A stretch of 64,000 nucleotides of DNA from an uncultured Muribaculaceae bacterium (GTDB taxonomy: Bacteria; Bacteroidota; Bacteroidia; Bacteroidales; Muribaculaceae). Both the position numbers and the translations under genes were made by a program. The notes under the pieces are model-generated. The model saw nothing but the letters and a program-made list of their open reading frames with translations. It was not told the DNA's origin and searched no databases. The DNA is taken from positions 42,174-106,173 of the forward strand of contig CALUMJ010000006.1 of NCBI GenBank assembly GCA_944321715.1, read 5' to 3'. Below, piece after piece: positions 45,068-50,459 of the stretch; within the stretch, counting starts at the first letter, position 1; each line of letters begins with the position of its first letter.

Positions 45068-46543
45068 TCAATTCTGTTTTTCCTCGTCGAACAGCGACAA
45101 AATTACCTCTTTGTCGTCGAAATGGTGCTTCACACCCCTCACTTCCTGGTAATCCTCATGCCCCTTGCCAGCCACCAGCACCACGTCGCCCGGTTCGGCA
45201 AAACAAGTTGCAGCCTTGATGGCGTCGCGGCGGTCGGTAATCTTGAGTGTGTGGCGGCGGTCACTGTCGTCGAGGCCGGCCTCCATGTCGCGCAATATTT
45301 CTTCGGGGTCCTCAAATCGGGGATTGTCGCTTGTGAGTATGAGGCGGTCGCTACGTCGGGCAGCTTCCTTTGCCATAATAGGCCTTTTACCCTTGTCGCG
45401 GTTGCCACCGGCACCGACGACTGTGATGATTTTGCCACGGTTGCCGACTACGTCGCGAATGGTGTCAAGCACGTTGACGAGCGCATCGGGAGTGTGGGCA
45501 TAATCGACAATTGCCGTGTAGCCGCGCGGCGAAACGAGCGTTTGGAAACGTCCTGCCACAGGCACAAGCAAGCTCATCTTCACAGCCACGTCCTCCTCGG
45601 GGAATCCAAGCAACAACGATGCGCCATACACCGCCGTGAGGTTATAGGCATTGAACCGCCCGGTAAAAAGCACCTCGATTTCACGCCCGTTAAGTTCGAG
45701 AGTGGTGCCATTGAGGCGGCTTTCTATGATTTTACCCTTGAAGTCGGCCATTGAACGCAACGAATATGTGTGCTTGCTGGCACGGCTGTTCTGCACCATT
45801 ACCAGCCCCACCTTGTCGTCGATATTCACGAGCGCAAAAGCATCGGACGGAAGGTTGTCGAAAAAGCTCTTCTTGGCTGCAATGTAATTCTCTACCGTCT
45901 TGTGATAGTCGAGGTGGTCGCGTGTGAGATTGGTGAACACGCCACCACGGAAACGCAAGCCGTCGATGCGGTGCTGCACACAAGCATGTGAACTGACCTC
46001 CATGAAAGCATATTTGCAGCCAGCATCGACCATTTGCCGCAACAAGCGGTTGAGCGTCAACGGGTCGGGGGTTGTCTGCTCGGTGTGAATGACTGTCGTA
46101 TCGACAATATTGCGCACCGTCGAAATCAATCCTGCCTTGTACCCGAGCAATTGCGCCATTTCATATAGCAGCGTTGCTGTAGTCGTCTTGCCATTGGTGC
46201 CAGTAACACCCACCAAGTCGAGCGACTGTGACGGATAATCATACCATGCCGAAGCAAGCCAAGCCAACGACCGGCTGCCATTGTCAACCACGATATATGC
46301 CACATCGGCAGAAAGTTGCTCGGGCAATTGCTCGCAAACCACGGCAGCCGCCCCAGCGGCAACCACATCGGGTATAAACTTGTGTGAATCGACAGTCACT
46401 CCCCTCACGGCAACAAACAATGCCCCGGCAGTCATGCGGCGAGAGTCGCACACCAAGTCGCATATCTCAACGCCGTCAACCTCGCCCTTTACATCAAGGA
46501 CGTTCAACGGCTTCAACAATTCGCTTAATAATTTCTTTTCCAT
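45068..46543 (-). CDS. murE: UDP-MurNAc-tripeptide synthetase, meso-DAP type
   Basis: 491 residues. Three-domain Mur ligase with GTNGKTTTATLLYEMAQ, the carbamylated-lysine region around HLDYHKTVENYIAAK, and in the C-terminal domain DNPR (in LTSDNPRFEDP), the tetrapeptide that marks meso-diaminopimelate as the added amino acid. C-terminal GKGHEDYQEV is also typical. 22 bp after ftsI. Confidence 0.96.
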   Translation of the reverse strand: MEKKLLSELLKPLNVLDVKGEVDGVEICDLVCDSRRMTAGALFVAVRGVTVDSHKFIPDVVAAGAAAVVCEQLPEQLSADVAYIVVDNGSRSLAWLASAWYDYPSQSLDLVGVTGTNGKTTTATLLYEMAQLLGYKAGLISTVRNIVDTTVIHTEQTTPDPLTLNRLLRQMVDAGCKYAFMEVSSHACVQHRIDGLRFRGGVFTNLTRDHLDYHKTVENYIAAKKSFFDNLPSDAFALVNIDDKVGLVMVQNSRASKHTYSLRSMADFKGKIIESRLNGTTLELNGREIEVLFTGRFNAYNLTAVYGASLLLGFPEEDVAVKMSLLVPVAGRFQTLVSPRGYTAIVDYAHTPDALVNVLDTIRDVVGNRGKIITVVGAGGNRDKGKRPIMAKEAARRSDRLILTSDNPRFEDPEEILRDMEAGLDDSDRRHTLKITDRRDAIKAATCFAEPGDVVLVAGKGHEDYQEVRGVKHHFDDKEVILSLFDEEKQN

Positions 46544-46565: not shown

Positions 46566-48710
46566 TCAGTTACGCAATGTGAGTTTGATTTCTGCGCCTT
46601 TAATTAATTTTCCTCCCGGTGGCAGACTTTGCTTGTAAACATAGCCCACTCCGGTATATCTTACTTGCAAGCCGACCGACTCAAGCCTGTCGATGGCATC
46701 GCGCAGCCCCAACCCGACTACGTCGGGAACTTTCCCCTCCTGCACCTCGCTCGGACGGCGCATGTGCCCAAGCGTCGAGGCGGCTTGCTTGCCGACAAAC
46801 GACGGAGCATTGCTGCCGCCGTCTATTGTGGCGTAGGTGATGCCCGAACGCCCACGTGTCGTGGAATCGATGGCTGCTTCGTAGCTTTTGTTGTTGCCAA
46901 GCATCCCATGGGCATGCATTCTCATGGCAATGCCCCTGAATACCTTGCCGCTGTTGCCAGCAGCACCATACTTGGCTCTTTCGCACACTACAATGCACGA
47001 ATAGCGAGGCTTGTCGTATGGGAAAAATCCGCAAAACGAGTAGCGTTTCTTTCCCGTGTATCCGCGTTTTCCCGGCACTGTCACGTAGGCCGTGCCAGTC
47101 TTTCCTGCCAAATCGACAACTGCATTACGCAGCGACTTGCCAGTGCCGTGGGGGTCTTGAACCACGGCATGCATCATGTCGCGCAACTTCTGGGCATTGG
47201 CCTCGCTGCATATTCGCTCGCGCACATAGCTCACGTCCACTATTGAATCGGGCATGCCTTCGCCCGAGAATTTAGTCACAAGTCGCGGTTTCACAAACCG
47301 GCCACCATTGGCTATGGCGTTGTACATGGCAAGCGTGTAGATAGGCGGCGTTGACATTCCGTAGCCATAACTCATGCGCGACAACAATATGCGGTTGGAA
47401 TTCAGGTGGTCCGAGAATCCCATCCTGGGCTTTTGCGCACCGGCAATTCCTGTCTTGAAGTCGTCGAAAAATCCTATACCGCGCAACCGCTGGCCGAAAG
47501 CCACAGGATTACTGTCATATTTAGAGGTTATGATTTTGGCGATACCTATGTTAGACGACCGCGAAATCACCTCCGTGACACTCAATGCCGAATATGCGTG
47601 GGCATCGGTTATGGCTCGTCCTCCCCTGTAAGCCCAACGGCTTCCAGTAGTTATTTGCTCGTTCACGTCAACTACGATGCTGTCTTCAAGCGCCACGAGC
47701 ATCGAAATCACTTTCATCACCGACCCCGTTTCGTAGCGCAAGAACGCATGGTTGCGGTTCTCCCTGTAACCTTTCGACAAGTCGAATGTGTCAACACGCT
47801 CCCAGTTTGCTATGGCCTTGATGTCGCCCGTAGCCACCTCCATCACTACGGCCGTTGCCCACAATGGCTGGGCGTCCATGCACATCTTTTTTAATTCTTG
47901 CTCCACGATGTCTTGTATCTCGACATTTATAGTGGTATAAATGTCGGTGCCATCGATTGCATGCACCTCTTCCCAGTTAATGGTGTTGTTGGTAGAGATG
48001 CGTTTGCGCAGCTCGCCGTTACGGCCATACAGCAACGAGTCAAACGACATTTCAAGCCCCGAGACACCAACAATCGACACCACATTACGGTTTCCGTCGA
48101 GTTTTACATTCTTCACCTTGGTTTCGCCAATGGTGCGCAAAGCTATTGACCCGTATGGGAGGCAACGTCTTTTGATTTCACCGAATACAAGCCCCGACTT
48201 ATTTTGCCCTTTCTTAAAAATCGGGAATTTCTCCATGCGCAAACGTTGCGAATATGACAGTCCGCCAAAGAAAAGCCATCCATTTCGGTTTTTTTTCGCA
48301 ATGTATTGCTTGGTCAATAGCGTCTTCCAGTCAGCAGCAGACCTTCCACCCAACGATATTGCGGCAAGGCTGTCGCACAATGCCGGGAGGTCTTTATAGA
48401 AATCTTCCTCCGAGATGCGTTCGGCACATGTCACCCAGTCGATTTTTGCACTGTAGGTCAATGCCGAAGCCGCAAGTATGGAGCCATCGTCGGCATATAT
48501 GTTGCCGCGTTCGGGTACGGCAGGTATGACTACGCTGTCGTTGTAAAGAGTGCGTTGCGCCTTCTCGTCCCATTCGTCGGCTTTTATTACGGTAGTTTGG
48601 AACAAACGATAAACAACAATGACCGACACCAAAAGTGCAGCCACAATAACCAGAAAATAGCGCCACATGATGTGTTGCTTATTTTTCTGCCGCTTCTTTC
48701 CCTTTCCCAT
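46566..48710 (-). CDS. ftsI: Septal penicillin-binding protein (class B transpeptidase) with C-terminal PASTA domain
   Basis: 714 residues from the ATG at 48710 (the extension to 48737 needs a TTG). Basic cytoplasmic start, one membrane helix (about 16-36), dimerisation/pedestal domain opening IPAVPERGNIYADDG, and the transpeptidase domain with SVMK (active Ser330), SSN (385-387) and KTG (537-539). The last 55 residues form one PASTA repeat, KVPDVVGLGLRDAIDRLESV. This is the SpoVD/PBP2x-like layout found in Bacteroidetes. Residues about 539-597 (46920-47096) are the source of the copied segment in the neighbouring small lipoprotein gene. Cross-links septal peptidoglycan with FtsW. Confidence 0.95.
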   Translation of the reverse strand: MGKGKKRQKNKQHIMWRYFLVIVAALLVSVIVVYRLFQTTVIKADEWDEKAQRTLYNDSVVIPAVPERGNIYADDGSILAASALTYSAKIDWVTCAERISEEDFYKDLPALCDSLAAISLGGRSAADWKTLLTKQYIAKKNRNGWLFFGGLSYSQRLRMEKFPIFKKGQNKSGLVFGEIKRRCLPYGSIALRTIGETKVKNVKLDGNRNVVSIVGVSGLEMSFDSLLYGRNGELRKRISTNNTINWEEVHAIDGTDIYTTINVEIQDIVEQELKKMCMDAQPLWATAVVMEVATGDIKAIANWERVDTFDLSKGYRENRNHAFLRYETGSVMKVISMLVALEDSIVVDVNEQITTGSRWAYRGGRAITDAHAYSALSVTEVISRSSNIGIAKIITSKYDSNPVAFGQRLRGIGFFDDFKTGIAGAQKPRMGFSDHLNSNRILLSRMSYGYGMSTPPIYTLAMYNAIANGGRFVKPRLVTKFSGEGMPDSIVDVSYVRERICSEANAQKLRDMMHAVVQDPHGTGKSLRNAVVDLAGKTGTAYVTVPGKRGYTGKKRYSFCGFFPYDKPRYSCIVVCERAKYGAAGNSGKVFRGIAMRMHAHGMLGNNKSYEAAIDSTTRGRSGITYATIDGGSNAPSFVGKQAASTLGHMRRPSEVQEGKVPDVVGLGLRDAIDRLESVGLQVRYTGVGYVYKQSLPPGGKLIKGAEIKLTLRN

Positions 48711-48747: not shown

Positions 48748-49062
48748 TTATTCACCAAACGTGGCACCAAGCAGTTCTTGGGCTATGCCGCCGAAAGCTT
48801 TTCCGCTGCTGGCAGCCGCTCCGCGCTCACCACCTTCACACACCACGATGCACGAATAACGAGGATTGCCGTAAGGGAAAAAACCGCAGAATGCGCAACG
48901 CCTTTTTCCAACATATTGTCCGTCCTCAAACACGTAGGCCGTGCCGTTGCCATCCTCCGACTTGGAGGTCGCGACATTACACGACTGAATCACAGTTACA
49001 ATAACCGCGGCACACACGATTATCCACATTTTTATAAAAGCACTTCGATACTGACTCTTCAT
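48748..49062 (-). CDS. Small lipoprotein carrying a copied fragment of the FtsI transpeptidase domain
   Basis: 104 residues from the ATG at 49062 (an ATG at 49086 would overlap ftsL). A signal peptide (WIIVCAAVIVTVIQSC) gives lipidation at Cys28. Residues about 40-95 align without break to the end of the FtsI transpeptidase domain encoded next door: GTAYV, then KRRCAFCGFFPY against KKRYSFCGFFPY, PRYSCIVVCE identical, and GAA.SGK.F.GIA shared. DNA identity is also high by eye. The lysine of KTG is lost (NGTAYV instead), and the serine and SSN motifs are not included, so it cannot be a transpeptidase. The intact frame, new signal peptide and tight spacing (7 bp from ftsL, 37 bp to ftsI) argue that it is kept and expressed. 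Function unknown; a structural partner or modulator of the divisome is one guess. Confidence 0.8.
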   Translation of the reverse strand: MKSQYRSAFIKMWIIVCAAVIVTVIQSCNVATSKSEDGNGTAYVFEDGQYVGKRRCAFCGFFPYGNPRYSCIVVCEGGERGAAASSGKAFGGIAQELLGATFGE

Positions 49063-49069
49063 TTTTATT

Positions 49070-49429
49070 TCAATGTTTGTTCCCATTCAATAAATATGGA
49101 GGCTCCACCGGGTCAACCAAATCGAGATTGATAGTATCAACCAACTGCCTCACGCTCTCGCCGCGGATTGTGGTGTAATATTTCTCGCTCATCAGCAAGT
49201 AATCCGACCTCACCGCCTCCAACTGGCTTTCGAGGGCATTTATACGACGCATCTCAACCATAGCCGCAAAGCGATTGGCGATAAAGCCCAATGTCACAAA
49301 CAGCACCAAAGCTATTTTCGGAAAATGCCGTTTGATAAACTCGACGGTTATGATTTTCCCGCCAAGGAAGTCCCAAACAGCCATGCCCACACGGGCCAGC
49401 AACATTGATATTTTTCTCTTGATTGCCAT
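49070..49429 (-). CDS. ftsL: FtsL-like cell division protein
   Basis: 119 residues. Cytoplasmic N-terminus of about 36 residues, one membrane helix (KIALVLFVTLGFIANRFAAM), then a periplasmic coiled coil (MRRINALESQLEAVRSDYLLMSEKY). This is the Bacteroidetes FtsL-like family, recognised by position between rsmH and the septal PBP. It should pair with FtsQ and a DivIC-type protein, which is not in the window. Confidence 0.88.
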   Translation of the reverse strand: MAIKRKISMLLARVGMAVWDFLGGKIITVEFIKRHFPKIALVLFVTLGFIANRFAAMVEMRRINALESQLEAVRSDYLLMSEKYYTTIRGESVRQLVDTINLDLVDPVEPPYLLNGNKH

Positions 49430-49441
49430 ACCTCACATTCC

Positions 49442-50359
49442 CTAAATCTTCTCGGCTATGCGCAACTTCGCACTGCGCGAACGCGGATTGCGCTCCACCT
49501 CCTCGGCAGTGGGTTGTATAACCTTGTTGTTAACCATGCGGAAAGGCGCATTTGTGCGACCAAAGAAGTCTTTTTCGACTTTGCCTTCCATGTTACCGCT
49601 TTTGATAAAATTCTTCACTAAGCGGTCTTCAAGCGAGTGGTAGGTAATGACCACAAGCCTGCCGCCAGGGCGCAACACCTGCAACGACTGCACAAGCATG
49701 GCGCGTAACGCACCAAGCTCGTCGTTGACGGCTATGCGCAATGCCTGAAACACCTGCGCAAGCTCTTTCTTCTCTTGAGCCGGTTTTATGAACGGTTTCA
49801 CCACTTCGAGCAGTTGCCCCACAGTGGCCACCGGTTTACCGGCAGCACGCGACTGCACTATGGCCGCTGCCATGCGGCGCGCCTGTTTAAGCTCGCCATA
49901 GTTATACAGCAGGTCGGCAATCTCCTCTTCGCCAGCCTTGGCAAGGAGGTCGCTTGCCTTCACTGTAGCCAAGCGGTTCATGCGCATGTCGAGCGGAGCA
50001 TCGGCACGGAACGAGAAGCCACGTTCGGCATCATCGAAGTGGTGGAACGACACCCCGAGGTCGGCAATGATGCCATCGACAACATCGACCCCGTAATAAC
50101 GCAGGAAATTGGCCAAGTAAGCAAAATTTCCATGCACAAATGTGAAACGGGCATCGTCGATGCGGTTGGCGTATGCATCCATGTCTTGGTCGAAACCATA
50201 TAGCCGCCCCTCATCGCCAAGGTGCGACATGATAGCACGCGAATGCCCTCCACCGCCAAACGTCACATCGACATACGTTCCGGACGGAGCAATAGCGAGC
50301 CCAGCCACGCTTTCCTCAAGCAAAGCTGGAATATGATAAACTATCTGTCGGTCATTCAT
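49442..50359 (-). CDS. rsmH: 16S rRNA (cytosine-1402-N4)-methyltransferase RsmH
   Basis: 305 residues from the ATG at 50359, opening NDRQIVYHIPALLEESV; the frame extends to 50431 through a likely leader. SAM-binding loop VDVTFGGGGHSRAIMSHL, GIIADLGVSFHHFDDAERGFSFR, and LAQVFQALRIAVNDELGAL are family hallmarks, as is the C-terminal NPRSRSAKLRIAEK. First gene of the cluster here; the usual mraZ is not upstream. Confidence 0.96.
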   Translation of the reverse strand: MNDRQIVYHIPALLEESVAGLAIAPSGTYVDVTFGGGGHSRAIMSHLGDEGRLYGFDQDMDAYANRIDDARFTFVHGNFAYLANFLRYYGVDVVDGIIADLGVSFHHFDDAERGFSFRADAPLDMRMNRLATVKASDLLAKAGEEEIADLLYNYGELKQARRMAAAIVQSRAAGKPVATVGQLLEVVKPFIKPAQEKKELAQVFQALRIAVNDELGALRAMLVQSLQVLRPGGRLVVITYHSLEDRLVKNFIKSGNMEGKVEKDFFGRTNAPFRMVNNKVIQPTAEEVERNPRSRSAKLRIAEKI

Positions 50360-50459
50360 TGCCACGCTTAATGATTTAATGCACAATAACTTGGGTGCAA
50401 CAATATCGCCACCCGACACACGGAATAGCACCGCGTGAAAGTATGTACCTTTCCGCTTG

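Follow-up and report, generated by a model that had tools for sequence, protein, structure and literature searches.

The division operon in the window, a 64,000-nucleotide stretch of an uncultured Muribaculaceae genome, raises the question of how a 104-amino-acid lipoprotein-like open reading frame (ORF; 48748..49062, minus strand) came to lie between an ftsL-like gene and ftsI, and what its product might do there. On the same strand, rsmH (49442..50431) is followed by the ftsL-like gene (49070..49429, 119 amino acids; named by position and resemblance only, with no NCBIfam match), the small ORF, ftsI (46566..48710 from its conserved ATG, or 48737 from a TTG) and murE (45068..46543). The rsmH and murE assignments are NCBIfam matches, and the ftsI product has PBP_dimer, Transpeptidase and PASTA domains with the SxxK, SSN and KTG motifs present. 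The small ORF starts 7 bases past the ftsL-like gene and ends 37 bases short of the conserved ATG of ftsI. We read it as an internally deleted paralog of the FtsI transpeptidase (TPase) domain. The account that we prefer, and hold to be fairly probable, is that an ancestral catalytically dead TPase lipoprotein has been kept in a sister species and that the window gene is its internally deleted, eroded ortholog.

The small ORF matches the end of the FtsI transpeptidase domain

Inspection by eye shows a hydrophobic stretch at the N-terminus of the small ORF, with VIQSC at its end. This signal segment (residues 1-28, 48979..49062), recognized by eye and from homology to the signal region of the sister gene described below, would run up to a putatively lipidated Cys28. 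A first-pass annotation of this DNA had described, in the interval from ftsL to ftsI, a 104-residue protein that carries its own lipoprotein signal, and the coordinates and the VIQSC motif bear it out, the signal being putative.

At E ≤ 0.001, a search of the window's own genome with the small ORF recovered only itself and FtsI (62% identity over query residues 38-97, E 4.0e-19). The FtsI side of the match covers 46917-47102, about residues 537-598 of the 714-amino-acid protein, in good agreement with the residues 539-597 given in the earlier annotation; alignment places the homologous stretch, which ends the TPase domain, at 46899..47108. A FCGFFPY..PRYSCIVVCE block is common to both proteins and, judged from the alignment, the similarity is far beyond chance. 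The TPase-derived piece of the small ORF (about residues 39-97, 48772..48948) extends from the former KTG motif onward, and past a conserved GIA its residues diverge from the ending typical of FtsI. That the catalytic motifs are lost had been noted before and is correct: KTG has become GNG, SxxK and SxN are absent and no class B PBP motif is intact. The Pfam Transpeptidase model gives the window ORF a sub-threshold score (13.7 bits against a cut-off of 22.1, E 0.036).

A full-length counterpart occupies the same slot in a sister species

We identified a 387-amino-acid ORF (L013:2253-3416) in the same ftsL-ftsI slot of genome G001, Candidatus Avimuribaculum pullicola (DVKC01000018.1, 100% identity). 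The genus Avimuribaculum was described from poultry and assigned to the Muribaculaceae (PMC8035907). In the sister ORF a signal up to LSQSC is joined by a short linker to the FtsI TPase domain, which is present through to its end; the ORF lacks the pedestal and PASTA, and the pedestal (PBP_dimer) is absent from the window copy too. All 23 compared FtsI rows have S-x-x-K; the sister copy has SVMN, with Asn in place of the lysine, plus Ser for the preceding Gly, and keeps SSN and KTG. It retains 81 of 91 FtsI-invariant sites (sites filled in at least 21 of the 23 FtsI rows; row L032 was excluded because its coordinates are off and the domain end is missing). One of the ten losses is a gap, and two others, G123S and K127N, strike the SxxK motif. 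The SxxK lysine is required for acylation. Given this loss of motifs, the copies may be pseudoenzymes, a class defined by lost activity in a retained fold.

The signal regions of the window and sister genes are homologous: their 33 aligned codons share 59 of 99 nucleotides, whereas codon shuffling yields a mean of 28.2 (SD 4.4, maximum 45 in 2000 shuffles). Their ends VIQSC and LSQSC are lipobox-like by eye only, and the lipoprotein status of both products is putative. By eye, neither CNVATSKSEDG nor CGASASGTDDQD has a charged run at +2 to +5. The export signal of surface-exposed Bacteroidota lipoproteins is described as sitting after the Cys, as with MKWD in BtuG2 (PMC6143338). As to a possible origin of the signal from the transmembrane (TM) anchor of FtsI itself, comparison of the two gave a protein similarity reached by 0 to 0.4% of 500 residue shuffles, largely hydrophobic in nature, and no signal in the DNA, where 23-29% of 500 codon shuffles reach the score.

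Both copies stop at about the same point past the TPase domain, and what the window gene is missing relative to its counterpart is the linker-to-KTG stretch of about 270-280 residues. Because the sister species has a homologous signal fused to a full TPase domain, a later in-frame deletion offers the best explanation of the short form, and a single such event would be the simplest account of it. The first-pass annotation had proposed an in-operon partial duplication; descent from ftsI with a signal of its own stands, but the copied tail piece probably gives way to the full TPase domain of the sister. That the window lineage duplicated a short FtsI tail on its own appears very improbable: a topology that groups the window tail with its own FtsI is 3.2 lnL behind (SE 4.8), but the signal is homologous to that of the sister's full-length gene, the slot is identical and the two copies share their end point. 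More generally, the best of the window-tail topologies is ahead by 0.7-4.2 lnL with KH standard errors of 3.9-7.0, so that the sister relation of the two lipoproteins is undecided by the tree. One assembly apiece documents the K-to-N change and the deletion, the sister being a MAG and the window genome (G000) an 88-contig draft.

The inserted gene is restricted to two genomes of the genus set

The earlier annotation had suggested a search of other Bacteroidales. Within a genus set of nine genomes, the window genome included, one other genome has the 387-amino-acid relative in the same slot and the gene is absent from the other seven. FtsI was matched in all nine genomes, and a second real match was found in G000 and G001 only, the only two carriers of the inserted gene in this set. 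A second match in G003 was ruled out as a real copy (E 9e-4, four internal stops). None of the seven others has room for the small gene between ftsL and ftsI: in six the two genes overlap by 8 or 11 bases, and G004, read by hand, has 364 bases from rsmH to ftsI, room for an ftsL-like frame only. A junction check attempted on 49 loci, many of them duplicates of the same genomes, scored 45 (three G004 loci and L040 were skipped). The ftsL-ftsI gap is at most 74 bases in the scored loci, except in the window (L022) and the sister (L013, L051); two odd rows, L039 and L046, look like start-site artefacts. A junction that is tight in the scored relatives has been opened here for a copy of the septal transpeptidase domain that is probably non-catalytic.

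G000 and G001 are sisters on a MurE+RsmH tree (98/100), and a protein tree joins the sister copy to their two FtsIs (100/100); with the E value of 4e-19 within the window genome, this identifies the inserted gene as a paralog of ftsI. The sister copy forms a long branch (0.65, compared with 0.11 and 0.068 for the two FtsIs, about 6-10 times longer), and the branching order among the three is unsettled by the tree. It is the shared slot and signal, more than the tree, that places the gain before the species split, and a single gain in the ancestor of the two species would be the best reading. Since the sister species still has a copy with the whole enzyme domain minus a key catalytic residue, the gene appears to be a recent offshoot of the division machinery, confined to this lineage.

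A search with the window protein matched 384 of 397 family genomes at E ≤ 0.001, a threshold at which a weaker short copy would be missed; nine had two matches and, of these, the real pair was G000 and G001, both counts being among the matches listed, as are the results of a further search over 297 genomes. Apart from this pair and G003, six genomes had two matches (G040, G077, G228, G233, G269 and G329). We searched these six, plus G059 and G035, again with the 387-amino-acid protein; in none of the eight was ftsI seen with a further copy next to it on its contig, though in some (G035, G329) ftsI or the second match lies at a contig end. One scan of viral contigs with the same protein found no relative.

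An additional FtsI-like protein is encoded on a different contig in G040, G077 and G269. G040 and G077 belong to another Muribaculaceae genus (g6), and their second FtsI-like proteins (L072, G040:C2:37479-38486, and L071, G077:C1:3785-4786; frames of 567 and 579 amino acids) are encoded away from the contig that holds the best FtsI match. In G269, two contigs each encode an FtsI-like protein (L073 and L068 on C45 and C9; frames of 717 and 743 amino acids), which may reflect either contamination or a real second copy.

Selection differs between FtsI and the sister copy

A branch codon model of our own (a script, not PAML), with synonymous sites near saturation, put omega at 0.077 on the FtsI branches and at 0.27 on that of the sister copy. 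Freeing the sister branch from the FtsI omega improved the fit (2dlnL 24.5), and omega=1 was rejected (2dlnL 13.1, about p 3e-4 by a 1-df chi-square). Purifying selection acts on the sister copy, in relaxed form. Once the window copy joins the tree, the sister's own branch has an omega of 0.17 in a weaker test (2dlnL 5.7). The stem branch before the split (omega 6.9 on a branch of 0.03) is poorly estimable, and fixing it at 1 costs a 2dlnL of 0.3; likewise, pairwise N-terminal dN/dS values of 0.49/0.96 (NG86) come from 33 codons, too short a stretch to use. The first-pass annotation had counted absence from all relatives together with neutral evolution as evidence against its reading; a relative, G001, does carry the gene, and the copy there departs from neutrality.

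These results bear on neutral decay, in which a duplicated ftsI fragment drifts to loss in both species, its frame staying open either by chance or because a closed one would have polar effects on ftsI. The damage does differ between the species (loss of the active-site Lys in one, deletion of about three quarters in the other), and the long protein branch of the sister copy fits such drift, though some of its length may be older than the split of the two species. Beyond the rejection of omega=1, however, the sister copy has no stop in 387 codons, and in neutral simulations none of 1000 runs kept a frame of that length open at t=1.6, which is near the FtsI tip branches of the codon model, and 0.8% did so at t=0.5. 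We consider neutral decay unlikely, and the sister protein is probably a selected non-catalytic protein, acting as a regulator or competitor. The corresponding simulations for a 104-codon frame left it open in 2.3% of runs at t=1.6, 19.8% at t=0.5 and 39.6% at t=0.25.

For the window copy, the dN/dS analysis proposed earlier gave an omega of 0.35 over 66 codons (2dlnL 5.9 against omega=1, about p 0.015). This value is no proof of present function because the branch takes in time before the deletion. Over 58 codons, the window copy differs from its own FtsI by 11, 15 and 28 changes at codon positions 1, 2 and 3, and it keeps 18 of 22 FtsI-invariant sites and 20 of 42 variable ones unchanged (Fisher p 0.015). 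This preference of changes for FtsI-variable sites, the window-branch omega, the frame preserved across the deletion, the retained hydrophobic signal and Cys and the block common with FtsI are all consistent with functional miniaturisation, in which selection would maintain the 104-amino-acid product as a small lipoprotein, its remaining TPase piece binding FtsI or one of the partners of FtsI. But the constraint may be older than the deletion, and the short form was seen in no other genome; we regard miniaturisation as possible but doubtful. The window protein is probably an eroded form of a sister-type protein.

A proposed path from ftsI duplicate to tethered pseudoenzyme

Under our preferred account of a dead-TPase lipoprotein eroded in the window lineage, the ftsI TPase domain would have been duplicated in place in the common ancestor of the two Avimuribaculum species and, within the ftsL-ftsI junction, have acquired a lipoprotein-type signal ahead of it. 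The product would have lost the ability to transpeptidate (SxxK reads SxxN in the sister copy) and been retained as a membrane-tethered, non-catalytic protein of TPase fold, co-produced with FtsL and FtsI. It would likely act by holding a partner or substrate of the FtsI TPase domain, or by competing for one. In the window lineage, one in-frame internal deletion would then have left the anchor and the end of the TPase domain, a short product that is probably eroded and has little or no remaining activity; its open frame may let ribosomes through without polarity on ftsI.

The first-pass annotation had suggested that the protein might bind FtsW or FtsL in place of FtsI, act as a decoy or stabilise the divisome. 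These proposals are weak, and the first fares poorly, as the FtsI TM helix and pedestal, the source of most known contacts, are absent. In the Pseudomonas aeruginosa complex as described, FtsW contacts the FtsI TM helix and the TM-pedestal linker, and FtsL has two contact sites on FtsI, one on the pedestal and one on the TPase domain (PMC7614612). Since the copy has neither TM helix nor pedestal, it is unlikely to replace FtsI on FtsW, and the FtsL-TPase site would be the only contact option left. By analogy with that complex, the sister protein could possibly serve as a TPase-fold decoy for FtsL or another TPase partner. It seems unlikely, and we put it forward tentatively, that a dead-transpeptidase lipoprotein tunes septal wall synthesis by occupying a partner of the FtsI TPase domain, and that the window form, cut down to 77 mature residues, still works.

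The two sister species appear to present two stages in the fate of the copy. If the copy acts, it would be a natural interference probe of those contacts of the FtsI TPase domain that do not involve substrate. If it is inactive, it would be a well-placed example of how the duplicate of a division gene erodes by way of a pseudoenzyme stage.

Comparison with other transpeptidase-domain proteins

We found no description of an FtsI-derived (dead) lipoprotein or an in-operon FtsI copy in Bacteroidota among titles and abstract openings of the open-licence literature. The closest relative of the copy is its parent gene in the same operon, FtsI/PBP3, a class B PBP with which it shares TPase homology; the copy differs in lacking the pedestal, PASTA and an intact SxxK, and in having a lipoprotein-type signal as its anchor. 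Mycobacterial PBP-lipo is likewise described as a class B PBP with a TPase domain and a putative lipoprotein signal, and is tied to septal growth, but its predicted catalytic activity is required, as an S364A allele fails to rescue (PMC9170245). Salmonella PBP3SAL is also a lineage-specific PBP3/FtsI paralog, reported as 63% identical to PBP3, but is an active enzyme that alone supports division at acid pH (PMC5736910).

A minor feature of the alignments concerns the residue before a Glu near the end of the TPase domain, which is Cys (...VVCE) in the FtsIs of G000 and G001 and in both lipoprotein copies, and Phe (...VVFE) in the FtsIs of the other seven genus genomes. On this alignment, the Cys is a shared mark of the G000/G001 pair.
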